Assembly: GCF_026210795.1 (NCBI RefSeq) | Contig: NC_089459.1 | Span: 992,001 to 1,056,000, forward strand | Direction: 5' to 3' | Length of the DNA: 64,000 nt | Origin: Rhizophagus irregularis | Lineage: Eukaryota; Glomeromycota; Glomeromycetes; Glomerales; Glomeraceae | Shown: piece by piece, positions 1 through 27,549 of the stretch | Layout of the letters: every line of letters begins with the position of its first letter | How positions within the stretch are numbered: the stretch's first letter is position 1 | Translations under genes and position numbers: made by a program | Notes under the pieces: model-generated | The model's input: the letters and a program-made list of their open reading frames with translations, nothing else | What the model was told of the DNA's origin: nothing | Databases searched by the model: none

Positions 1-764
1 CATGATTAGGTAAGTTAATTGACGCAGGACCTGGCAAGTTGTCACCAGGACAATTTGTCCGGTGTACAAATTATTCCATGGTTTAATCCATTAGAATTTT
101 ACGTTATAAATATTCCTCAAGATTGAGACAAGTTTTGCAATTTTTACAAATTTTTTAAATTTTTACTGTAACCTGTTTTTTCTTTCGAAAAATAGTTGGT
201 TTTAAAGTTTTTGATACAGAATTTTATAGGAAGTGTTTGATAATATTAAATTTACTACAGAGACAGTAGTAAAAATTTTATTATCAACGCACCGCTTATC
301 ATTTTAGATTTCTTAACGTGACACATAAATAAACTGTTATACTTTTGATCGTATTTTTATTTTCTGTTATCACTGAATTTGGTTAATAAATTGATAAATT
401 TATTAGAGATGGTTAGCTTTGATCGTAATTGAATAAACATAGATTTAATAGATTTTTTAACATATACGTAAAAAGGTCAGGTACGAGTTTGCGTACAACT
501 AGTCAAAAAAAAACATGAAAATCTTTCCTTTTCGTGGAAATCTAGTGTCTTTTTTGGACACTGACCGAAATTATTATAATTCTGGCCCTGAAAAAAATGC
601 GTATAGCCAACAGTATAATTTTTTTGGCTGTCATTGACCTTTTTATATATATATTTCGGGTTTCATATAATATAAGGTATTAGGTATACTTATTTGTGTT
701 AACATAAATTAGTAATCAATTTAAAAATATGATGCAAATTAAATTTTAAATAACTAAATTAATT
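1..764. other. Gene-free A+T-rich stretch
   Basis: No exon chain or long open frame that I can support. Around 565-590 there is a degenerate copy of the dispersed word that elsewhere reads GGCCGGAATTA (here an inverted pair around an AATTATTATAATT core), probably a transposon-end relic. Confidence 0.5.
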
Positions 765-960
765 ATAAAAATGAATGATTTTTCGAGAGAATTATTATTT
801 TCTTTAGTAAAAACTATAAATTATAATATAAATAAACTTACCAACTATAAATTATAATCCGAAGGTATCCAAAAAAATTAAAAGCTTTAGTAATTATAAT
901 ATGACAAATAATTCAATTATAATAAAACTTACTACCATATACACGCAATTGTCCATCTTT
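765..960 (-). repeat. Fragment: SCA7-gene tail plus two microexon-like units
   Basis: Bases about 765-815 match the last exon and 3' flank of the SCA7 gene at 21600-21690. Immediately after, on the minus strand, are two splice-flanked units like those of kinases K1 and K2: a TTG triplet at 842-844 between TTTATAG and GTAAGTTT, and a 24-nt unit at 933-956 between AAAAAAG and GTAAGTTT. The stretch 840-930 is nearly the same as 5715-5810 inside kinase K1. It lies downstream of the stop of locus K0, so it looks like a stray duplicated piece, not part of a working gene. Confidence 0.55.
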
Positions 961-1293
961 TTTATTAAGCTGTTTCTTTATATGCACACATCTTGTGCAA
1001 CAGTCTCAATATAATACTGATCCTCAGTTTTTTCGAAGACAGGGTAAATATCCTTTTTTAATTCATCCTAATATTTCTAATGCTAATACACCAAATATCG
1101 CTATTGATAATTTATCTGAATTAATGAGTAATATATTTAAGGGTATGTTCTTTACATTAATAATATTATATTTTTTACACAAAAGTCACGTTACCGAAAA
1201 CTTTTTGGTGGTAGTTAGAAGTGTATGCAAATTGTGATTTATCAATCCTTTTTTGTAAATCTAATGATATAAATTCGTTAACAGTTAAAACAA

Positions 1294-2759
1294 TTATGAG
1301 ATATCCAATGATCTTGAACGATAAGCCTCTTTCAAATCTATAATAAAGAAAAGATCAATAATTTAAATAATTTATGCTATTAATTTATAAACAATTTACC
1401 ATCCAAAGAAAAATTGTAAGTTTGTGTCATATATCTAGAATCTAACAATAAAAATGATATTAATTATTTAATTATTTTTTTTTAAAGCAAATTGTTACAT
1501 TAAAACACCTACCTTCTTCTTCATTAAATGTATCATCTCTGTCATTATTATCTTTATAAAAATGTTACAAACATTAACGTTAAAATTTTGATGTTTAGTA
1601 ACTCAGTAAATCAGTAGTTATAGTTAGATCGATGATTGAAAATGTTCAATTTTTAAATATACTAATAAAAAAAATACTAATATAATATTACAAACAATAT
1701 CCACCTGATTGTCCATCAAAAATTTAGTGGCCCTTTTAGCTCGATTTAAGACATCATCTTTATTTCCATGAGTAACATTATTATCAAATAATCTATTAAC
1801 TTCGTCTTCGGTATACTTGAGTGCCAAATCAGTAGCTTTAGATACATATTCTAAGGTCTTATTTTGGGCTCTTTCAAGTTCAACTTTACATTTTGCCCTG
1901 GCAGCTGCTCCTGCTACAATCAATTCGGAGTTAAGATAATGATCTTTTTATGTTACAGCACGACCATCAGATCCATAAATAACAGATTGAGAAGGTTTAT
2001 TTAAAACTTCTGTGACGATGGTAGTATTTTTGCTATTGAGAAATTCGCAACCTTGTTGAATCAAATATTGTTCACAGGCTGAATATAATTCTTTTTCCAA
2101 ATCAGAATTATGGACTTGTTCGCTGATCCAGGCACTTGCACGAATTCGTATTCAACCAAAACAATTTTGAAATAGGTGACAATGAATGCAGATATCCAAA
2201 GACTCTTATCAAGACGCCTCAAACGTAGACTACCAACATAAGATTTAAGAGTTTCGACAGCTTCTTCGGGTGAAGAAATCTTGAGTTGTTCGGAAATTAT
2301 TTTGTGAAGAGTGAAAGATCCATTGTTATGTTGGGATTTGCATAAAGAAATAAAGAGCATGGTCAACTTTAGCATCAGATCTAAGTCCATTATATATGGT
2401 AATTTTTGTTGTTTCATCTACATCAAGCTTAGTAACTTGAACATTTATGGTTTGATTATTATAAGCCTCCACAGCTTTTTCAATCAGATACTGGTCGCAG
2501 GCAGAGTCTAATTCTTCCAACTCTTCTTTACTAAGTTGTTTACTGACTACCCATTTATTTGCTTTTTCACAAATGTTACGCCATTCACTTTCGTAATCAA
2601 CTAAAACATATTTGAAATATATATGTAATAGTAAATAAAGTTTGCCAGATTGATTTATCACAATTTTTTTAGATTTTTGGTGCCAACATAACGAGTAATT
2701 GAATCGTTTATTAATTTCTGATTACATTGTATACAAATGATATCTTCTAACACGTTCAT
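1294..2759 (-). pseudogene. Kinase-family locus K0: deleted kinase domain, decayed repeat domain, intact tail exons
   Basis: The start at 2759 gives the kinase-family N-terminus MNVLEDIICIQCNQKLIND, nearly the same as K1 and K2. After about 21 codons it passes without a kinase domain straight into sequence resembling the repeated domain of K3 (motifs W-x-SKQLSKEELEEL, SACDQYLIE, SACEQYLIQ). At least two frameshifts and a stop (TGA at 2658-2660) break this part. A further open piece (1711-1923, RAKCKVELERAQNKTLEYV) is not recognised. The 3' exons are clean: 1513-1551 (DNNDRDDTFNEEEG), 1400-1441 (SRYMTQTYNFSLDG) and 1294-1337, ending LDIS and a stop; all are phase 1-1 and match the tails of K1, K2 and K3. 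The best reading is a recombinant pseudogene made by an internal deletion. An expressed repeat protein with unusual splicing is less likely. Confidence 0.7.
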
Positions 2760-3599
2760 GATGGCAAGAAAATATCAAGAATATATTTTTTATGTTTAGT
2801 AACCGTCATACTCCATATTTTTAACGTTGTTTAAATAAAGTGAAGATCTACATCGCAGACATGAATGAAATCAGGTGACGCAAATATTTACGTTAATCAC
2901 TGTCATTTTCGGGTTTGTGGGCGCGGTTTCTACTTTATGCACCCCACAAAACCGGGTGCAAGTCATAACTAGTTGTCATACAAAGATAATACAAAAAAAA
3001 GTGGCTTGACACGTGACTTTTGACCCGCATTACGGCATTATGCACTAACATGTGAAAATAAACAGTGACGAATAAGTTTTTACTTACTCGAAAAAACCAA
3101 TCTAAATCCCTCAGATAAATATAAAAGTGGAAACGTGACGGTTGTGATGAATAAAATGCAGTCACGTGTCAGCCACTTTTTTTTTTGCCATGGCTATGGT
3201 TGTATATAAAGACGTATGGGCGTAATTTAAGTTAGTAATCTCCAAACAAGATTCAAGTAATTTACACATGCATTGGTGTGATAAATAAACTGGTTTTAAT
3301 CAAAAAGATTCATTTGCGATAGAAACTATATATTATCAAAAAAAAAAAAAATGCTATAAATACAGTATACTGTATTAATAATGATAATATTTTTAAAGCA
3401 ATGCGTGGAATTTAATATAAATTTTACGATATTATATTTTTTTAAAAAAAAAATTCATTGATAACCCGAAAAACAATATTATTATACAGCGTATACTTTT
3501 TGATTGGTTAAATAGATCATTTGTTTTATAAATTAGTAAGTATAATCGGTTATTATAATGCTTACATAAAAATATGATACAAATTAATTAAATTAATTA
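2760..3599. other. Duplicated 5' flank shared with K1 and K2
   Basis: This non-coding stretch is the upstream flank of K0 and is clearly homologous to 21050-21600 upstream of K2 (same words GAAGATCTACATCGCAGACATGA, here interrupted after 20 bases for length limits, and ACAGTATACTGTATTAATA). It is more weakly homologous to 8040-8460 upstream of K1. It probably holds the promoter of the ancestral kinase. No open reading frame of note. Confidence 0.6.
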
Positions 3600-4290
3600 A
3601 TTAATTAATTATAAAAATGAATTTTTTTTGAGCGAATTATTATCTTCTTTAGTAGAAACTAGTGTTGAAGCAAGGAGACATTATTAGTATTTTTTTTTTC
3701 TCAGAATAAATATAAAAATTTAAAGTAAAAAATTATATTTGTTATAAATTCACCTTCTTTCTCTATATCATCTTTTTTATCGTTATCGGTTGACTTTGAC
3801 ATGCCATTATCTCAACATATAAATAAATTAGATAACAATAATATAAATTTATACAAAAATGTACATATAAATTAATTACCCTTGATGAGCCTGATAGATT
3901 TTGTTTTTTCTGATATTTGAATAAGTAAAATAACATATGACATTTCGAATGAGGCGTGTACAAGGCTTATTACTAGGCGGCACAATTATATGTACTTCGC
4001 ATTGATTGTCCAAATAAATCACACTAATTTTAAATTAAATATTAAAAAAGTCTAAAAAGTTGTCAAAATTTGGAATTTGTAAATTTCCTGCAACCTCTAT
4101 TACGTCTTATAATTTTCTACTCTTTTTAATCTTTTGTTTTTCCTAGGGAATTCTTGCGAGAATTAGACCTTTTTTCTAAAATTTTATAAGAGTGGATTAT
4201 AATCATTCAAATGAAAAATTTTGAAGAAATATAAACTTACGAATTTTTTTTTTCTTTCGTCTTTGACCTGTTGACCATAGATCTGATTTT
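3600..4290 (-). pseudogene. Decayed copy of the SCA7-domain gene
   Basis: Colinear with the intact gene at 21636-22533. The last exon (STKEDNNSL, near 3625-3665) and the penultimate exon (MSKSTDNDKKDDIEKEG, near 3760-3815) are still readable. The zinc-binding SCA7 exon (about 3890-4030) is broken: the first cysteine region (QCEV) and a CTR remnant remain, but the frame is lost and the C-x-x-H part is gone. Pieces of the two basic exons are visible near 4130-4190 and 4240-4260, and exon 1 with the start codon is not found. It was copied together with the kinase upstream flank at 2760-3599. Confidence 0.7.
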
Positions 4291-4969
4291 AAGAAAAACA
4301 AAATAATGAAATTTTATTGGTCTATATATCTCATTATGACTTCTAATATTTAGATTTCATGAATAAAAAAAAAAGGGTTAAAGAATTTCGGTGTATAAAT
4401 CTGCGGAATCAGAATTTAAAATAATAAACTTATTTGTTAAAATTAACATATCTTTAATATAGAACATCCGATTTCAATGTCGTTAGCATGTGGTTATAAC
4501 TTATAAGGCCATGCACTTTGTATTTTTTTTTTTATTATCCTTTAAACGGTAAAAATATTTCTACCAATTATTACAGTAATAGTCAAAATTTTTAAAATGA
4601 AATTGATGTTATTAATTTTATTAGCTAATTTTTTTAATTTGTACCATAATACAATCCAAAGTTTCAAAAAGGAATGAAGTCGTAAAACAAAATCACAAAA
4701 ACCAAAACAAAGTATAATTATAAAATTCGAAAATCAAAATACACACTAAGCAAAACAAAGAAATGCATAAAAATCCAACAAAAAAAGCAAAATGTAGTAA
4801 AACTGACCAAAAATGAAAAATAGAAAAATAAATGATAAAGAAAAAATGAATTCCCAAAGATTCATCATATGTTAAATTATATGTCACATAATGTGGTATT
4901 TCGCACAATTTATCGATCCTGTTAAAATTTAGTAATAGAATTTATGAAATATCTAATAATCTTGAACGT
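4291..4969. other. Gene-free A+T-rich stretch
   Basis: I see no gene here. It separates the decayed SCA7 copy from the 3' end of kinase K1. Confidence 0.4.
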
Positions 4970-7900
4970 TTATCGTTTATTCGTTAAATCATTATAAGCC
5001 TCGTTCAAGTCTATATTAAAAAAAAAAGATCAATAATTTAAATATTTTATGCCATTAATTTACAAATCACTTTACCGTTCAAAGAAAATTTGTAAGTTTG
5101 AGTAATATATCTAGAATCTAATAATAAAAATTATGTTAATTAAATATTTAATTATTTCAAAATAAATGTTATGATATTAAATTTTATACCTTCTTCTTCA
5201 TTGAATATGTCATTGTTGACATTAACATCCTTATAAGGAACTACTTGTATCGGAGATACTTGTTCTATATCAATTTTAATTAAATTTTAGTAATATAAAA
5301 TATTATGTCATTAATAAATACTTATTTCAATAAAAATATTTGGTCATAATTTCAAAATCAAACCGGTTTTCTGTTTTTCAACTAACAATTTAGATTTAAA
5401 AATAAGCAAGTTTTAATCATTAAATAATTAAGTTATAATATAAATAAACTTACCATATATATTGTCTAATCATATACAAAAGGATATTTATTTAATTATT
5501 GTTAATGGAAAATAATACAATTGCTAACTAATTAAGTAATTATAATAAACCTACTAACTACAAATATAAAAATTAAAGCTATAATTTGGCAAATAATTCA
5601 ATTATAATAAAACTTACGATTATTATCTTCATCCTCATATTCTATATAAATTAATTATTAGCAGCAATTAATATAATTGTTAGATAATTAAACTATAATA
5701 TAAATAAAACTTACCAACTATAAATTATAATCCGAAGGTATCCAAAAAATTAAAAGCTTTAGTAATTATAATTTGGCAAATAATTCAATTATAATAAAAC
5801 TTACTATCATCAGATTCTATATAATTAATTATTAACAACGATTAATATAATTGTTAGATAATTAAATTATATTATAAATAAACTTACCAACTATAAATTA
5901 TAATGTGAAATATTTCCCGAAGAGTAAAATTTTGAAAATTAGTAAATAATTTAATTTATTAAAAAATAAGCTATAATATAAATAAAAAATAAACTTACAT
6001 TCTTAAAAAATGTAGCATAAAAAAATCAAAACATTGATGTTAGTAGTTTTATTTAAATAAATAATTAATTAATTTAAAAGAGCACATCATATATCGAGTG
6101 CATTAGTCGTCAATAAACTTACGAACTATAAATGTATTTATAAAAAAAAATTAAAATATTGATTTTTAGTACTCATAATTAGCAAATGTTTTAATAATTA
6201 GTATATAATGCAATAACTTACATTCTTTAAAAATGTAGTATAAAAAAAATTTTGATGTTTAATAAATATAATTGGCAAATGTTTTAATTATTAAATAATT
6301 AAAATAATATTAAATAAACTTACTACTAGTACGACTTTCTTAAAGTATTAATATTAAATTGCATTCCAAAATAAAGTTATGCAACAATTAGTAAATGATT
6401 TAATTATATATTAATAATAAGTCATAATGTTAGTAAACTTGCTTTAAATATAGTAATTAAAATATACTTACGTAAAGCATCTATTAACCAGAAGTTAATA
6501 AAGTTTTGATATTTAATAGTTATGATTTATAAATGATTTGTTATTATTTGAATAATTAACGTATACTTTATCATATTTTAAAAAATATTGTATACTGACT
6601 TTTAAGAGTATATTCATATGAGTGCTTTAGTTTCATATTCTAAAAATACAAAATGAAATTAGAATTTACTTAATTACACACATTTAAATATCTATATATA
6701 CCTGGTTGGATACTATTTTCATTTGAATCTGTTACATAATTAGGTTGAGTTGATGTTGATTCAGACAAACCAAAAGCAATTTTTGACGAAATCGTATCAT
6801 CATCAATCATTTTACATAGTTCCATCATTTCCTCAAATAATTTCGGTAAATGAGAAGCATCAGGTCTTTTTAATGGTTCAAAATTCCAACATTGTTTCAT
6901 AAGATTAGAATAAAAATCGGGCGTTCCTTTAATATCTTCGGGTCTCAGTCCATCAAGAACTGCAAGCGCAAAACCTGCGTCATGTTGTCTATTTGAAAAT
7001 GGTGGTTCGTCTGAAATTAATTCCCACATTATCATACTTAAACTATACACTTCTGATTGTTTTGTATATGGTTTACGTCTCAGAACTTCAGGAGCGATAT
7101 AAGGTAAAACTCCTTGAATGCTATCCGAAGTTTCTAGAAAAGCAAAATATAATTTTGTTAATTATTTTATGAAACAAAAAATTGTTTTTCTTTAATTTTT
7201 ACCTATTTCAGAGTCAATTGATTGACAAAGTCCAAAATCACTTATAAAAATTCTATCATTTTCGTCTACTAAAATATTTTTACAATGAAAATCCTTATGA
7301 ACTAGATTCATTTGGTGAATTGAATTTAAAGCTTTTGATAGTTCAATAAGAATCTTTGCTCTATAAGTCCAAGTTAATTTTGGAAAAAATTTACGAATAT
7401 AATTTCGTAGATCTCCATGTTCTGCATGTCTTATTACCATAGCGTATTCATTTCCTCCAGGTGCTTTTGTTATTCCATAGAATGGCACAACTCTTGGATT
7501 ACGGCATTGATGGTGAATTTTAAGCTAAATAAATAATAATAATTAATTTCAGGGAAAAAGTTTATTTCTATTGATTTTATTTTTTCTTACCTCGTTGAGG
7601 ATATTATCATTAATATTATCGGAATCATTAATGGCTTTTAAAGCAACTTTAGAAGATAATTGATTTGAAACTATTGAAGCCAAAGACATGTTTAACATTA
7701 AATTCCAAGTTCCAAAATAAACTTTGGAATTTCCTCCGTTTGTTAAATATTTTATATTTTCTAAATTTGAACGTGGAATCCATTCAATAAAATCATCACA
7801 ATATTTTGAATTTAATTGAGTTTCTTTAATAAATTCGTCCAATATAGAATTCCCACTTATCTTGCTATCAATAAATTCCTTTTTAGTTATGTTTACTTCA

Positions 7901-15120: not shown

Positions 15121-15647
15121 CCCTATAAAAAGTATTATACTTAAAATATACTTAAAATATATTTAAAATATACTTAATTTAAAAATTGCAAAATACTTAT
15201 AATATATTTTTAATATATCTAAAATATACTTAAAATTATCTTAAAATATATGTTTAATATATTTAATTTTTGCCCATACACTTAAAATATATTTAAATTA
15301 TATTTAAATTAAAATTTAAGTATATTATAAGATTATTATAAGTATATTTTTTACATACTTAAAATATACTTAAAATATATTATGAAATATATTATAAGTA
15401 TATTTTAAGTATGTAAAAAATATATCTATAATATACTTAAATTTTAATTTAAATATAATTTAAGTATATTTTAAGTATTTGGGCAAAAATTAAATATATT
15501 AGAAATATATTTTAAGATAATTTTAAATACATTTTAAGTATATTATGAGTATTTCGCAATTTTTAAATTAAATATATTTTAAGTATATTTTAAATATATT
15601 TTAAAAAGTTTTTAATTATATTTTAAATATAAATACTTTTTATAGGG
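15121..15647. mobile_element. 527-bp foldback (palindromic) MITE
   Basis: The element begins CCCTATAAAAAGTATT and ends with its reverse complement AATACTTTTTATAGGG. Pairing continues inward over almost the whole length around a centre near 15385, including a shared ATTTTTGCCCA block and many ATACTTAAAAT words. The trinucleotide TTA flanks both sides (15118-15120 and 15648-15650), fitting a 3-bp target duplication. It has no coding capacity and lies just beyond the 3' end of kinase K2. Confidence 0.8.
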
Positions 15648-15998: not shown

Positions 15999-18900
15999 TT
16001 ATGAAATATCCAATAATCTCAAACGATTATTAATTAAATCATTATAAGCCTTGTTCAAATCTATATAATAAAAAAAAGATAAAAAAAGGTAATAATTTAA
16101 ATATTTCATTATTAACTTATAAATCACTTTACCGTCCAAAGAAAATTTGTAAGTTTGTGTATTATATCTAGGATCTAATAATAAAATGACATTACTTAAT
16201 TATTATAATTATTTTTTTTAAAAAAAAAAAATAATATATTAAAATAAATACCTTCTACTTCATTAAATATATTATTGTTATCATCATTATCATCTTTAAT
16301 TTCGTAAAACTTTAATAACTTATTTTATATAGTACCTAATTATTAAATAATAAATTATGATATAATAAACTTACCATCTATAAAATGTAATGTAAAAATT
16401 AAAATAATATTAATAATATTGATGTTAGTATTCATATTAGCAAATCATTTAATTATTAAACAATAAGTTATAATGTAAATAAACTTACTACTATCTATAA
16501 AATGTAATATTAAAAAGTTAAAACATTGATGTTAGTATTATGTTAGCAAATAATTTAATTATTAAACAATAAGTTATAATGTAAATAAACTTACCTTCTA
16601 TAAAATGTAATATAGAAAAATTAAAATATTGAAATTAGTAGGTATGTTAACAAATAATTTAATTATTAAACAATAAGTTATAATGTAAATAAACTTACGA
16701 TCTATAAAATGTAATGTAAAAATTAAATAATATTGAAATTAGTAGGTATATTAACAAATAATTTAATTATTAAACAATAAGTTATAATGTAAATAAACTT
16801 ACCAACTATAAAATGTAATATAATAAAGATTAAAACATTAATGTTAATAGTTTAATTAGCAAATAATTTAATTATTAAACAATAAGTTATAATGTAAATA
16901 AACTTACAATCTATAAATGTAATATAAAAAGGTTAAAATATCAATGTTAATAGTTTATAGCAAATAATTTAATTATTAAACAATAAGTTATAATGTAAAT
17001 AAACTTACGAACTATAAAATGTAATATAATAAAGGTTAAAATATTGAAATTAGTAGTTATATTAACAATAATTTAATTATTAAACAAATAAATTATAATG
17101 TAAATAAACTTACTGTCTATAAATGCAATATAAAAAAGGTTAAAATATTGAAATTAATAGTTTATAGCAAATAATTTAATTATTAAAAATAAGTTATAAT
17201 GTAAATAAACTTACTAATTTCTATAAAGTGTAGTATAAAAGAGTTAAAATATTGCTTATATTAGCAAATAATTTAATTATTAAACAATAAGTTATGATAT
17301 AAATTAACTTACGCCCTACAAAATTTAGTATAAAAAAGTTAAAATATTGATGTTAGTAGTTAAGTTAGCAAATAAATTAATTATTAAACAATAAGTTATA
17401 ATGTAATAAACTTACAAGCTATAAAATGTAATGTAAAAAAGTTAAAATATCAATGTTAGTAGGTATGTTAACAATAATTTAATTATTTAACAATAAGTTA
17501 TAATGTAAATAAACTTACATTCTATAAAATGTAATGTAAAAAATTAAAATAATATTGATGTTAGTAGGTATGTTATCAAGTAATTTAATTATTAAACAAT
17601 AAGTTATAATGTAAATAAACTTACGATCTATAAAATGTAATGTAAAAATTAAATAATATTGATGTTAGTAGGTATATTAGCAAATAATTTAATTATTAAA
17701 CAATAAGTTATAATGTAAATAAACTTACCAACTATAAAATGTAATATAATAAAGATTAAAACATTAATGTTAATAGTTTAATTAGCAAATAATTTAATTA
17801 TTAAATAATAAGTTATGTAAAAATCATATAATTAAATAAATAACATACTCCCTATATTATTAAATAAAAAATTTAGTTAGTTTAAATTATATGTAAATAT
17901 AAATATAATAGATTAATGTTAGTAGTTAAATTAGCAAATAATTTATTCATTAAACAATAAATAAACTTACATTCTATAAGATGTAATATAATAATTAATA
18001 AAGGTTAAAATATTGAAATTAGTAGTTATATTAGTAAATAATTTAATTATTAAACAATAAGTTATAATGTAAATAAACTTACCGTCTATAGAATGTAATA
18101 TAAAAGGTTAAAATATTGAAATTAGTAGTTATATTAGCAAATAATTTAATTATTAAAAATAAGTTATAATGTAAATAAACTTACTAATTTCTATAAAGTG
18201 TAGTATAAAAGAGTTAAAATATTGCTTATATTAGCAAATAATTTAATTATTAAACAATAAGTTATGATATAAATTAACTTACGCACTACAAAATTTAGTA
18301 TAAAAAAGTTAAAATATAGATGTTAGTAGTTAAGTTAGCAAATAAATTAATTATTAAACAATAAGTTATAATGTAATAAACTTACAAGCTATAAAATGTA
18401 ATGTAAAAAAGTTAAAATATCGATGTTAGTAGGTATGTTAACAATAATTTAATTATTTAACAATAAGTTATAATGTAAATAAACTTACATTCTATAAAAT
18501 GTAATGTAAAAAATTAAAATAATATTGATGTTAGTAGGTATGTTATCAAGTAATTTAATTATTTAACAATAAGTTATAATGTAAATAAACTTACCGTCTA
18601 TAGAATATAATATAAAAGGTAAAATATTGAAATTAGTAGTTATATTAACAATAATTTAATTATTAAACAAATAAATTATAATGTAAATAAACTTACTGTC
18701 TATAAATGCAATATAAAAAAGGTTAAAATATTGAAATTAATAGTTATATCTGCAAATAATTTAATTATTAAACAATAAGTTATAATGTAAATAAACTTAC
18801 CTTCTATAAAATGTAATATAATAAAGGTTAAAATATTGAATCAATTCGTAGTTATATTAGCAAATAATTTAATTATCAAATAATAAGCTATAATGTAATA

Positions 18901-21034
18901 AACTTACGTGCTTTTTTTTTAAAATGTAGTACAAAAAAGTTTGATGTTTAGTAATTATGTTAGCAAATAATTTAATATTAAGCAACAAGTTATATCAAAT
19001 CCAGTTTGTTAAAGCCAGCATTCCTATAAATAAACTTACGAACTAAAAAAAGTTAGTTTTTATTGAAAGATTGTTTAATTAGTATTAAGTATAATACAAT
19101 TGTGCTCGGGTTATTTTATATGGATCATGAAAAAATTGGCCGGAATTAGCCTAATTCTACCATACATTATACCCGGATATATTATAACGAGGTGGGTCTT
19201 TAGTATAATGTACTACTTACTTGTAGGAACTACAGTATAAACCAAAAGTTTAAAGTTTGATATTTAGTATCAAATAATATAATTATTAAATGGTTTGCTT
19301 TTATTTTATATTTTAAAATTCTGTATACTGACCTTCGAGAGTATAGTCAAACGCTTTGGTCTCATATTCTAAAATATAAAATGAAACTCAAATTATTTAC
19401 ATTTAAATGTCCATACTATAAAATAAATATTGTACCTGATTGAATAATACTTTCATTTAAACTTGTTACAGAATTAGGTTGTGGTGATAATTCTATATCT
19501 ACTGAATTATTATTATTTATCATAACCGTTTTTTCCTTAGGGTAATAAGTTGGTGCCATATTAAGATTATCAGTTGCTCTAGTGCCATATCCTAAAAAAT
19601 TTCAATATTACAATATTTATTTTAAGTTATAGTGCATTCAAATTATTATTCATATTTTTACCTGAAATAACACTATTATTAGTTACAAAATTAGATTCAG
19701 ACAATGATGAATAACAAGTTATTTTTGATGAAGCTATATTATCATCAGCCACTTTACATAGATCTATCATTTCTTCGAATAATTTCGGTAAAAGAGAAGC
19801 ATCAGGTCTTTTTAATGGGTCAGAACTCCAACATTGCTCCATAATGCTAGCATAAAATTCTGGTGTTCCCTTAACAATTTCGGGCCTCAGCGGTTTCAGT
19901 TCATCAAGAACTTCAAGCGCAAGACCCGCGTCATGATGATTATTTGAAAATGGAGCTTCATCAGAAGTTAATTCCCACATTATCATACTTAAACTATACA
20001 CTTCTGATTGTTTTGTATATGGTTTACATCTCAGAACTTCGGGAGCGATATAAGGCAAAACTCCTTGAATACTATTCGAAGCTATTAGTAAAAACAAAAT
20101 ATAATTATATTAATTATGTTTATGAAATAAAAAATCGTTTTCTTTAATTTTTACCTATTTCAGAGTCAATTGGTTGACTAAGTCCAAAATCACTTATAAA
20201 AATTCTATCATCTTCGTCTACTAAAATATTTTTACAATGGAAATCCTTATGAACTAAATTCATTTGATGGATTGAATATAAAGCTTTTGATAGTTCGATA
20301 AGAATCTTTGCTCTATCAGTCCAAGTTAATTTTGGAAAAAATTTACGAATATAATTTCGTAGGTCTCCATGTTCTGCATATCTTATTACCATGGCATATT
20401 CCTTTCCTACAGGTGCTTTTGCTATTCCATAGAATGGTATAACTCTTGGATTACGGCATTTATGGTGAACTTTAAGCTAAATAAATCATATAATTAATTT
20501 TAATATTTATATATTCTTTTATTTGATTTCATTTTTCTTTACCTCGTTTAGGATATGATCATTGATATTATCAGAATCATTAATGACTTTTAAAGTAACT
20601 TTAGAAGATAATTGGTTTGAAGCTATTGAAGTCAAAGACATGTTTAACAATAAATTCCAAGTTCCAAAATAAATTTTGCAATTTCCTCCATTTGTTAAAT
20701 ATTTTATATTTTCTAAATTTGAATGTGGAATCCATTCAATAAAATCATCACAATATTTTGAATTTAGTTGAGTTTCTTTAATAAATTCGTCTAGTACAAA
20801 ACTCCCGCTTGTCTTGTTATCAATCAATTCATTTTTAGGTAATTTAGACTTAATCTTAAATAATTTAATTATATATGATTTGGCTTTAGAAAGTTTGTTT
20901 AATTTAATTTTTTGTACGCCTCGAGATTTATTTATTTGCGAAGGAGAAAGGAGTCGTTTTCTACAAAGTTGATTTGGATAATTTATTATTTTCTGATTAC
21001 ATTGCATACAAATGATATCTTCTAACATATTCAT
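15999..21034 (-). CDS. TKL-type protein kinase K2 with long microexon-array tail
   Basis: Exons: 20543-21034, 20155-20476, 19662-20081, 19436-19591, 19333-19368, about 27 microexons from 19229 to 16375, then 16252-16293, 16133-16174 and 15999-16060; together 555 residues. N-terminal C-x2-C (CMQCNQK) and a later C. Kinase marks: NGGNCKIYFG, VTLKVI, VHKDFHCKN, ISDFGL, APE, so likely catalytic. Exon 4 is a Ser/Asn-rich linker (TVMINNNNSVDIEL). The 42-nt exon gives DDNDDNNNIFNEVEG, and the last two give PRYNTQTYKFSLDG and LNKAYNDLI...LDIS-stop. All exons after the kinase domain are phase 1-1. Upstream sequence is shared with K0 and K1, and the SCA7 gene lies 600 bp upstream on the same strand. 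The kinase part is firm; whether every microexon is used in the mRNA is inference. Confidence 0.82.
16375..18910 (-). repeat. Tandem array of intron-plus-microexon units in K2
   Basis: About 25 tandem units, period about 95-125 bp (mostly 101-106). On the transcribed strand a unit contains a TACTAAC/TACTAAT-like branch point, then TTTATAG, then a variable 3- or 6-nt block, then GTAAGTTTATTTACATTATA. Microexon positions (left base) and sequence in transcript order: 18908 CAC; 18801 AAG; 18697 ACA; 18595 ACG; 18489 AAT; 18386 CTT; 18283 TGC; 18185 AAATTA; 18083 ACG; 17971 AAT; 17849 GGA (donor GTATGT); 17729 TTG; 17635 ATC; 17519 AAT; 17416 CTT; 17313 GGC; 17215 AAATTA; 17114 ACA; 17009 TTC; 16908 ATT; 16803 TTG; 16699 ATC; 16595 AAG; 16499 ATAGTA; 16375 ATG. 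Two more lie just upstream: 19221-19229 (9 nt) and 19040 TTC. Confidence 0.85.
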
Positions 21035-25861: not shown

Positions 25862-26809
25862 ATGGTACCTCCTGACCCTAACAAACCTACTTTTTCTCTT
25901 AATTTGAACATTAAAACCCCTGAACAAACTTGGTATGATACAGATTATCCATTTACTATGGACAGAGACAAACTTTTAATGAACTCGAATAAATCTAGGC
26001 CTGATATTCCACGTCCTCCAAATTCCTTTATTTTATATGCGAAAAATGAAGGCAATAAACCAAAATACAAGAAGATGCAAGCAAATAAAAAGTTTAGAAT
26101 AATTGGGAAACTCTGGCTAAATGAATCAAATGAAGTCAAAAATCTTTTTGACTGTGGCGCAAAAGTGGCAAAGAAAAAACATGCTAAACAACATAAAGGA
26201 TATCGATTTAGAAAGAGAAATCAACAAAAAGGAGCAAAAAATGTTAAAGAAAATAAGTTACCTATCCAATCTAACCTTTTTTCAACGTCGACTACATCAT
26301 CTACTTCATTAGAACATCATCCTCAATTACAGTATATCACTGAAGATCAATATAACTTTTCGTCTACGACTACCAACTTTATTGCTACAGCTAATTGTAA
26401 TCAACTTGAGTTATCTATTCCATCCAATTTAGAATCTCCTTTAACATTAAATTTTCCTTATATTCGACCTGTATCCAACTTCGCTGCTGCAGCTTGTGAT
26501 TTACCAGGATATATTAATTATAACCAAATTGAGACATCTAATCCATCTAACTTGGAATCTTTTTTAACTCCTTCTACATTAAACTATCCTTATATTCAAT
26601 CTAACTCCAACCTTAATGCTGTAACTTATGATTTACCAGGATATCCTAATTGTGACCTTATGGAGTCACCTATTCCATCCAACTTGGAATTTTTTTCAAC
26701 TTATGCAACATTAGATTATCCTTATATACAACCTGAAACCAACCTTACTTTTGGTTACAATTTGTCAGGATTGGTAATAAATGAGTCTTCCATAGTTCCT
26801 TTAGGATAA
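25862..26809 (+). CDS. HMG-box protein of MATA_HMG type, 315 aa
   Basis: Single-exon gene starting at ATG 25862. Residues about 47-120 form an HMG box: RPPNSFILYAKNE, IGKLW, ESNEVKNLF, then AKKKHAKQHKGYRFRKR. This order matches the fungal mating-type MATA_HMG class, a minor-groove DNA-binding fold; Glomeromycotina genomes carry many such genes outside any mating locus. The usual tyrosine before the second helix end and the YP of the C-terminal basic arm are altered (LF, HKG), so binding strength is uncertain. Residues about 170-300 hold three imperfect repeats of about 45 residues with the words IPSNLES, NYPYIQ and YDLPGY, possibly an activation or interaction region. The nucleus is the expected site. 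Its exact target is not deducible. Confidence 0.85.
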   Translation: MVPPDPNKPTFSLNLNIKTPEQTWYDTDYPFTMDRDKLLMNSNKSRPDIPRPPNSFILYAKNEGNKPKYKKMQANKKFRIIGKLWLNESNEVKNLFDCGAKVAKKKHAKQHKGYRFRKRNQQKGAKNVKENKLPIQSNLFSTSTTSSTSLEHHPQLQYITEDQYNFSSTTTNFIATANCNQLELSIPSNLESPLTLNFPYIRPVSNFAAAACDLPGYINYNQIETSNPSNLESFLTPSTLNYPYIQSNSNLNAVTYDLPGYPNCDLMESPIPSNLEFFSTYATLDYPYIQPETNLTFGYNLSGLVINESSIVPLG

Positions 26810-26929: not shown

Positions 26930-27300
26930 ATATAGAGAAAAATGCTGCAAATGATCAAATAGCAGAATTAACTTGTAATCAAATAGCAAGAATTAACTCT
27001 GTAGAATTAACTCTGTTTTCAGATAGCAGAATTAACTCTGTAATCAAATAGCAGAATTAACTCTGTAGAATTAACTCTGTTTTCAGATAGCAGAATTAAC
27101 TCTGTTTTCAAATAGTAGAATTAACTCTGTTTTCAAATAGAAAAATTAACTTTGTAGTCAAACAGCAAAATTAACTCTATAATCAAACAGCAAAATTAAC
27201 TCTATAATCAAATAGCAAAATTAACTTTGTAAATCAAATAGCAAAATTAACTTTGTAATCAAATAGCAAAATTAACTCTGTAGCTAAATAACAGAATGAA
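26930..27300. repeat. Minisatellite, about 25-bp unit
   Basis: Tandem, partly nested copies of a unit reading AGCAAAATTAACTCTGTAATCAAAT with variants (CTGTTTTCAGATAGC, TTTGTAGTCAAACA). About 15 copies lie here and two to three more at 27495-27545, after a non-repeated stretch. It follows the HMG-box gene by about 120 bp. No protein-coding meaning is seen. Confidence 0.85.
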
Positions 27301-27549
27301 AGAAAATACCTAATATTAATTCATTTAAATAATGTATAATACTATTCATACAATTCTTCTCACTTATAGATGATATATTCATCTCACTGGATGATCTGAT
27401 AAAAGAGCAAAACGGTTGGACGATCTTTGCCAGACCAACATTAAAAAAAACTCAAACGCTCATCTCGGAACAATCAAGCAAAAGTAATAGGAGACATTAA
27501 CTTTGTAATCAAATAGCAAAATTAACTCTATAGTCAAATAGCAAATTAA

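Follow-up and report, generated by a model that had tools for sequence, protein, structure and literature searches.

Can part of a fungal kinase be encoded by exons of only three nucleotides (nt), one after another in a tandem repeat? The question is raised by a 64,000-nt stretch of the Rhizophagus irregularis genome (NCBI RefSeq assembly GCF_026210795.1, contig NC_089459.1, positions 992,001 to 1,056,000 of the forward strand), which is referred to below as the window. On its minus strand lies a kinase gene, identified by a protein search as NCBI OCT59_022319 of R. irregularis (P0001), and at 19229–16375 this gene contains 27 candidate microexons, of which 23 are 3 nt, three are 6 nt and one is 9 nt in length. 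The array is best interpreted as a run of real, translated microexons that would encode a tail or linker of kinases codon by codon. From splice sites, reading frame, codon usage, related loci and the avoidance of stops at exon junctions, a probability of about 0.88 is assigned to this interpretation. Related loci are designated below by L numbers and database proteins by P numbers.

The microexon array of the window kinase gene

All 27 microexons are preceded by AG and followed by a donor, GTAAGT in 26 cases and GTATGT in one, and the introns that separate them range from 92 to 178 nt. The original prediction for this locus had described about 27 tandem microexons of 3, 6 and 9 nt in a kinase gene, arranged in about 25 units of about 105 base pairs (bp) and with every block length a multiple of three. 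This description proved to be accurate, with Tandem Repeats Finder reporting 24.4 copies of a 104-bp unit and an additional 206-bp higher-order period. The sequence YAGNNNGTAAGT occurs 25 times in the window, with 21 of the copies inside the array, compared to 0.58 expected from 100 dinucleotide shuffles (largest 3). A chance pattern as the origin of the array is ruled out by this excess.

When the long exons and the 27 microexons are spliced together, an open frame of 555 amino acids is obtained that matches kinase profiles at E = 3.8e-40 and 3e-37 (PF07714/PF00069, Pfam scan). The microexons contribute 96 of the 1668 nt of coding sequence (stop included) and the remainder is found in longer exons. 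Phase 1 is dictated for the run by both flanking reading frames, and in this phase 32 codons are added with no stop (peptide VPTIPQDNESLQINEWIDQSWQINIHFDQDSN). Phase 2 contains six stops, and phase 0 is open but disagrees with both flanks. Since the surrounding introns are phase 1, exons of three nucleotides do not correspond to whole codons. The proposal of a kinase tail with one codon per exon therefore requires an amendment: it is supported by phase, splice sites and codon usage, but the codons straddle the junctions. All 27 microexons are multiples of three between phase-1 introns and are thus symmetric. With both flanks in phase 1, the gain or loss of a unit would be frame-neutral, as had been predicted.

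In the NCBI model P0001, translation continues past exon 5 into the next intron and terminates there. Two proteins from the same species, P0007 and P0008, share a C-terminal sequence, NNDIFNEEEDSRYITQTYKFSLNDLNEAYNDLTNKR, that matches the window exons located 3' of the array. From this match, the gene most likely does end with these exons.

In an alignment of 24 array introns from the window, none of the 96 positions of the GT and AG dinucleotides is altered. Within the intron body, the major base averages a frequency of 0.891; with the same divergence, and by an arithmetic that ignores the relatedness of units, about 10 of the splice positions should have changed. The same measure at the three exon positions, taken over 22 triplets, is 0.59, 0.41 and 0.32. 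The reference for codon usage was a set of 5,293 codons from long open reading frames of the retrieved loci; the scoring skipped the units of L011 that are not multiples of three and those units of a second kinase family, described below, that are not 3 nt. Expressed as log2 odds per codon, the window array scored +0.24 in phase 1, −0.81 in phase 0 and −3.06 in phase 2, and the related array of L012 scored +0.54 in phase 1 versus −0.74 and −6.51 in the others.

These data bear on an alternative in which the array is a satellite-like tandem repeat within one long intron. The splice-like signals would then be copies of those in a founding unit, and the whole array would be removed in one step to give a protein that lacks the segment. 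The repeat is indeed a clear minisatellite, the window frame also stays open when all 27 microexons are removed, and two database models for the second family (P0011 and P0043) lack the array. However, the splice dinucleotides are preserved while the rest of the unit drifts, the triplets vary far more than the introns, and codon usage fits phase 1 in both the window and L012. Stops are also avoided between a triplet and the next one downstream, some 100 nt away, and at that spacing only (see below). With these observations in mind, an intronic satellite is considered very unlikely.

Arrays in two kinase families

The genome searched comprises 146,748,485 bases in 32 contigs. The assembly report describes a 32-chromosome Nanopore assembly of DAOM197198 (GCA_026210795.1) with a quality of Q36.27 after polishing and an annotation that made use of short- and long-read RNA (PMC10234402). 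A DNA search with 941 bases of the window array returned 110 matches, and a search with one array of the second family returned 200. Arrays of AG-NNN-GTAAGT units were present in 20 of the 20 loci first retrieved. Arrays were examined at 31 further loci, two of the window type (L011 and L012) and 29 of the second family (18 in L013–L030 and eleven added, L035 and L036–L045). L031–L034 are partial arrays and were left uncounted, with array fragments seen in L032 and L034; L035 is the same locus as L031 and was used in the stop test described below (bases 250–4270). The kinase arrays contain some 20 to 46 three-base exons each. In L011 and L012, the array is located 3' of the kinase domain as in the window gene. 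All called units of the L012 array are multiples of three, and phase 1 produces a stop-free, acidic tail of Asp and Ser.

In the second family, the array precedes the kinase domain, as read in L029, L013 and L014 and as judged in the others from the downstream kinase-exon pattern. The protein from L029 matched kinase profiles at E = 7.4e-43 and 1.9e-37 (PF07714/PF00069). The start codon and an optional exon were read by eye in L013 and L029 only. An exon upstream of the array was recognized in 11 of 28 loci; in all 11 it is open with a 3' end in phase 1, and its lengths (51–123 nt) all differ by multiples of three. Where recognized, the start of the array is CTT/CTC, TTG/TTA, ATG, ATT, GGT or close variants thereof. 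At its other end, a 1-nt exon is present in 28 of 28 loci, being A except in L030 and L045 where it is T, and the kinase exon that follows begins A/TTT GGx or a close variant. The frame is kept from the phase-1 array start into the kinase exon in 24 of the 28 loci, and this requires the 1-nt exon. Insertions were observed within array introns of L029 (~4870–5020) and L013 (~2370–2690), and both loci are still in frame.

The genome contains 83 exact copies of a 20-base motif that includes the 1-nt exon, and none of the reversed control. At least 64 of the 83 sit 329–506 nt before a kinase match on the same strand, among the 101 kinase matches listed. Exact matches to a strict unit pattern number 984 (control 0). 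The pattern recovers 297 of 928 known units; by extrapolation, about 3,000 such three-base exons would be present genome-wide.

Units were also located by the intron body instead of the splice sites. Over 28 loci, AG-N3-GT was found in 485 of 499 units, and a search of this kind on 18 loci yielded 317 units of which 285 have the full AG-N3-GTAAGT. The 14 exceptions among the 499 include true losses (such as GT to TT in L029 and AG joined directly to GT in L025) and a few pattern misses. The loss of one whole unit leaves the frame unshifted. The exonic length is of importance to a second alternative, in which the units are ratchet points by which a long intron is removed step by step, with the three bases having no role of their own. 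AG closely before GTAAGT resembles a recursive-splicing site, and a few units of L025 and L030 do have AG directly joined to GT. Against such a role, the exonic length is three, and not zero, in the 485 units, the exonic bases are hypervariable, junction stops are avoided, and the window array spans only about 3 kilobases. Ratchet points are scarcely credible as an explanation of these arrays.

The hypervariability is seen among unit pairs of the same locus that have identical 40 + 40 flanking bases (18 loci). The triplets differ in 120 of 456 such pairs, by two or three bases in 70 of the 120; among control 3-nt windows taken within the flanks, 2.3% differ, and 0.14% by two or more bases. Near-identical repeats with variation concentrated at coding positions are a pattern that these arrays share with repeats of the fungal NLR type, which have hypervariable codons and are under concerted evolution. 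Since the introns are near-identical while the triplets are diverse, selection or a focused change mechanism would favor codon diversity. When near-identical units are compared, 20 differ at the third position only, 17 at the first only and 5 at the second only, a distribution that does not separate phases 0 and 1.

Reading phase of the joined triplets

Phase-1 reading of joined triplets would create a codon at each junction, with its first base contributed by the end of one triplet and its other two by the start of the next triplet, ~100 nt away in the DNA. A junction stop test was made on 29 loci with 962 triplets and 921 adjacent pairs. Pairs touching units that are not 3 nt were excluded, as were two spurious 9-nt calls, one in L013 (which gives a stop) and one in L042. 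In phase 1, two junction stops were observed versus 18.2 ± 3.3 in 5,000 within-locus shuffles of triplet order (lowest 6). Triplets ending in T were then counted over distinct pairs per locus: they make up 2 of 57 before a triplet starting with AA, AG or GA versus 196 of 606 before others (p = 2.2e-7). With each triplet pair counted once over all loci, the values are 1 of 44 versus 68 of 237 (p = 2.2e-5). The loci are related and their counts are not independent; the distinct-pair tests lessen this dependence but do not remove it.

The avoidance is specific for direction and spacing. With the triplet order reversed, there is no depletion of T ends (18 of 60, p = 0.73). In a scan of spacings, the share of stops is 0.22% at +1 and 1.3–3.2% at 17 other spacings. 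In all 26 loci where the 1-nt exon is A, the preceding triplet has an end base other than T, which would create TAA; in L030 and L045, where the 1-nt exon is T, the preceding triplet is CTT. Since we know of no process acting on unspliced DNA or RNA that would give such a rule, and translation of joined triplets would, the one-directional avoidance of stops between nearest neighbors should arise from the reading of spliced mRNA. Together with the constraint on the splice sites, it is indirect evidence that the splice sites function in transcripts. Phase 2 of the second-family arrays was rejected, with 118 stops versus 99.5 in shuffles.

Read in phase 1, the second-family arrays (18 loci) contain all 20 residues, of which Arg, Asp, Trp, Asn, Tyr, Phe, Leu, Ile, His and Gly are the commonest. 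The array-encoded segment would probably be disordered. In 924 of 962 triplets (96%), the middle base, corresponding to the third codon position under phase 1, is T or G. This is an NNK pattern, a scheme used in protein engineering to reach all amino acids with one possible stop. The triplets of the window array have no such restriction at the middle base; therefore, splicing alone does not demand it. It is a matter of speculation that the pattern represents a design against stops, the plain alternative being descent from a few founding units.

The triplets might also be spliced and translated in phase 0, where each triplet would be a codon and the last exon of the second family would be AGTAA, as in P0010. 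This 5-nt exon and the 1-nt exon have a common acceptor, and their donors, A/GTAAGT and AGTAA/GTAATA, are 4 nt apart. By eye, P0010 (L035/L031, C11:4167301-4171800) follows the array of its locus closely: its end, ELGILGIELSKFGKS, corresponds to the triplets in phase 0 with some omitted, and about 30 one-codon exons of the locus are included. Only 3 of the 962 triplets are stops in this phase (TGA) and, on inspection, the third base is the most variable one at the conserved array starts. On the other hand, the upstream exon ends in phase 1 in all 11 loci where it was recognized, and the avoidance of junction stops would be meaningless. At the first donor, 18 of 18 loci have GT, whereas L021 and L026 have GC at the second donor, the one that phase 0 needs. 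The encoded segment would also be very hydrophobic, with a grand average of hydropathy of +1.60 versus −1.06, and phase 0 is a poor fit to the window and L012 arrays. Phase 0 was rejected for the second family mainly because junction stops are avoided, the upstream exon ends in phase 1 and two loci have a broken second donor. The likelihood that it applies is close to nil, and we think that the reading phase of P0010 is wrong.

Other public models may be considered in the same terms. A search with the second-family protein identified 104 proteins, nearly all of them named as Rhizophagus kinases or unnamed Rhizophagus products. The models P0020 and P0060 from R. diaphanus have the same phase-0 look, which at the protein level suggests that arrays exist in that species too. 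In P0011 and P0043, the upstream part runs directly into DDFILEK.. of the kinase exon, as though an internal acceptor had been used, and an array-free isoform is possible in the second family. P0009 and P0012 appear to read into introns. The two overlapping donors at the array end (L013–L030) could switch the frame of the whole array, and the public models seem to use both.

Several observations weigh against the interpretation of the arrays as translated, phase-1 microexons. The public models disagree with one another at the arrays, since P0001 stops, P0011 and P0043 skip the array, and P0010 and others follow phase 0 with the 5-nt last exon; we take this inconsistency to be the result of gene finders meeting an unexpected structure. 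The two junction stops, located in L027 and L037, are contrary to the rule, and a control in which each triplet is paired with the next but one (i, i+2) also presents a mild depletion of T ends (9 of 60, p = 0.02). Codon usage in L011 is best in phase 1, yet negative (−0.51 versus −1.47 and −2.07), and the array contains one 4-nt unit. In the second family, phases 1 and 0 are barely apart (−0.49 versus −0.57). A search for the upstream exon with one pattern was negative at 17 of 28 loci. Four of the 28 loci (L017, L025, L037 and L041) are out of frame because of 2-nt, 4-nt or zero-length units, some of which may be assembly errors given the Q36 quality.

Proposed mechanism and comparison with known systems

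In the proposed model of translated microexons, a unit would consist of one ~100-nt intron with a TACTAAC-like branch point and three exonic bases. Since a three-base exon is not plausibly bound at both ends at once, we infer that the introns are removed successively by intron definition, in a manner like recursive splicing that leaves three bases behind per step. The mRNA would gain one codon's worth of sequence from each unit, with every codon split so that its first base is the end of one unit and its other two begin the unit that follows. If a unit were duplicated in tandem, deleted or skipped, the protein would change by one residue with no frameshift. Block repeats in the arrays, such as AAT CTT xGC AAATTA which occurs twice in the window array, point to turnover by unequal crossing-over or conversion, and the introns may be homogenized through unequal crossing-over and gene conversion.

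The product would be a variable segment, polar or rich in aromatic residues, that follows the kinase domain in the window family and precedes it in the larger family. From its position, composition and variability, the segment may serve as a fast-evolving docking or recognition segment that sets the binding partners of each kinase. A broader proposal is that the ~3,000 exons and their NNK codons amount to codon-by-codon diversification on a genome scale, with the segments forming a repertoire for the recognition of partners, hosts or non-self. Shuffling of units would then recode two neighboring residues and almost never make a stop, the segments would be rich in Arg, Asp, Trp, Asn, Tyr, Phe and His, and frame-neutral skipping of exons in the RNA would perhaps add variation. 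This proposal is a tentative one and we would sooner doubt it than adopt it.

If the model is correct, these genes have an architecture that edits a protein segment by single codons embedded in repeated introns, and a fungus could diversify its kinases without loss of frame. Some 20 to 46 successive three-base exons would have to be spliced, which would be a hard test for models of exon recognition. The model would also account for the inconsistent public models of the kinase family at the array. As the junction stop test requires DNA alone, it could reveal other translated microexon arrays.

The features of the window kinase gene are listed in Table 1. A second kinase gene of the same family is located at ~8034–4970 on the minus strand of the window and matches P0007/P0008, which are from other isolates. 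Its tail, read by eye, has 3-nt units mixed with 9-, 12- and 24-nt exons, a composition that may show how arrays begin or decay; the frame of this copy, also read by eye, looks broken near the exon preceding the array. A lone TAG-TTG-GTAAGT unit at 836–847 on the minus strand, near the window edge, possibly belongs to another array gene. An AT-rich 11-bp tandem repeat (45 copies, 15136–15631) adjoins the kinase gene of Table 1 downstream. Elsewhere in the window, a 132-bp tandem repeat (2.4 copies) and nearby 25-bp minisatellites are found at 26436–26747, 26955–27282 and 27496–27549.

Table 1. Exons, microexons and tandem repeat of the kinase gene, in window coordinates
Feature	Position	Strand	Basis
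Exon 1, from ATG, 492 nt	20543..21034	-	open frame and splice sites
Exon 2, kinase domain, 322 nt	20155..20476	-	spliced frame; PF07714/PF00069
Exon 3, kinase domain, 420 nt	19662..20081	-	spliced frame; PF07714/PF00069
Exon 4, 156 nt	19436..19591	-	spliced frame; residues identical in P0001
Exon 5, 36 nt, last before microexons, 3' end phase 1	19333..19368	-	spliced frame; P0001
Microexon 1, TTCCTACAA, 9 nt	19221..19229	-	splice sites, frame; same exon in L012
Microexon 2, TTC	19040..19042	-	splice-site scan
Microexon 3, CAC	18908..18910	-	splice-site scan
Microexon 4, AAG	18801..18803	-	splice-site scan
Microexon 5, ACA	18697..18699	-	splice-site scan
Microexon 6, ACG	18595..18597	-	splice-site scan
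Microexon 7, AAT	18489..18491	-	splice-site scan
Microexon 8, CTT	18386..18388	-	splice-site scan
Microexon 9, TGC	18283..18285	-	splice-site scan
Microexon 10, AAATTA, 6 nt	18185..18190	-	splice-site scan
Microexon 11, ACG	18083..18085	-	splice-site scan
Microexon 12, AAT	17971..17973	-	splice-site scan
Microexon 13, GGA; unit diverged, AG/GT kept (GTATGT)	17849..17851	-	splice-site scan
Microexon 14, TTG	17729..17731	-	splice-site scan
Microexon 15, ATC	17625..17627	-	splice-site scan
Microexon 16, AAT	17519..17521	-	splice-site scan
Microexon 17, CTT	17416..17418	-	splice-site scan
Microexon 18, GGC	17313..17315	-	splice-site scan
Microexon 19, AAATTA, 6 nt	17215..17220	-	splice-site scan
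Microexon 20, ACA	17114..17116	-	splice-site scan
Microexon 21, TTC	17009..17011	-	splice-site scan
Microexon 22, ATT	16908..16910	-	splice-site scan
Microexon 23, TTG	16803..16805	-	splice-site scan
Microexon 24, ATC	16699..16701	-	splice-site scan
Microexon 25, AAG	16595..16597	-	splice-site scan
Microexon 26, ATAGTA, 6 nt	16489..16494	-	splice-site scan
Microexon 27, ATG	16375..16377	-	splice-site scan
Tandem repeat, ~104 bp (intron and microexon), 206-bp higher-order period	16337..18907	-	Tandem Repeats Finder
Exon directly 3' of array, 42 nt, phase 1, Asp/Asn-rich	16252..16293	-	spliced frame; P0007/P0008 tail match
Penultimate exon, 42 nt	16133..16174	-	spliced frame; P0007/P0008 tail match
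Last coding exon with stop, 62 nt	15999..16060	-	spliced frame; P0007/P0008 tail match

The original prediction also held that no such array is known. No description of these arrays in R. irregularis was found in the open-licence literature, among the matches listed; the array is, however, one of dozens in the same genome. The closest points of comparison are found outside of this species. Schistosome micro-exon genes (MEGs) have exons of about 6–36 nt. The coding region of a MEG is composed largely of very small symmetric exons, and the genes belong to families and undergo accelerated evolution (PMC4350168). As in the MEGs, skipping or copying of exons keeps the frame here. Unlike the MEGs, the exons are mostly 3 nt and are organized in long tandem arrays with near-identical introns, and small exons do not make up most of the coding region of the window gene (96 of 1668 nt). 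The MEG products are found in secretions and glands of the parasite, whereas the arrays here adjoin a kinase domain in a fungus.

The repeat domains of fungal NLR proteins (HNWD in Podospora, and relatives) are described as subject to concerted evolution with positive selection at few codons (PMC4986451). Near-identical tandem repeats, changes in repeat number and few diversifying codons per repeat are features in common with the kinase arrays. In contrast, the NLR repeat is coding and folds as WD, ANK or TPR, whereas the repeat here is mostly intron with one codon's worth of exonic sequence. A Pfam scan of two array-containing proteins identified neither a NOD (NACHT or NB-ARC) nor NLR repeats, with only kinase-type families above threshold.

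Very small exons can be spliced accurately. Arabidopsis APC11 has a single-nucleotide exon for which a stepwise, intron-defined removal was proposed (PMC4674806), and Drosophila hth has an exon of the 1- or 3-nt class (PMC7392893). These are single tiny exons, whereas here they occur in runs of about 20–46. In Dscam1-type clusters, tandemly duplicated exons vary a protein segment and one of many is chosen. The simplest reading of the kinase arrays is, in contrast, the in-frame joining of all exons. The exons of aphid bicycle genes are tens of nt in length and the products are secreted effectors; to our knowledge, no one-codon arrays occur in these genes. The bicycle genes are a rapidly evolving family for which microexons are mentioned (PMC9168663).

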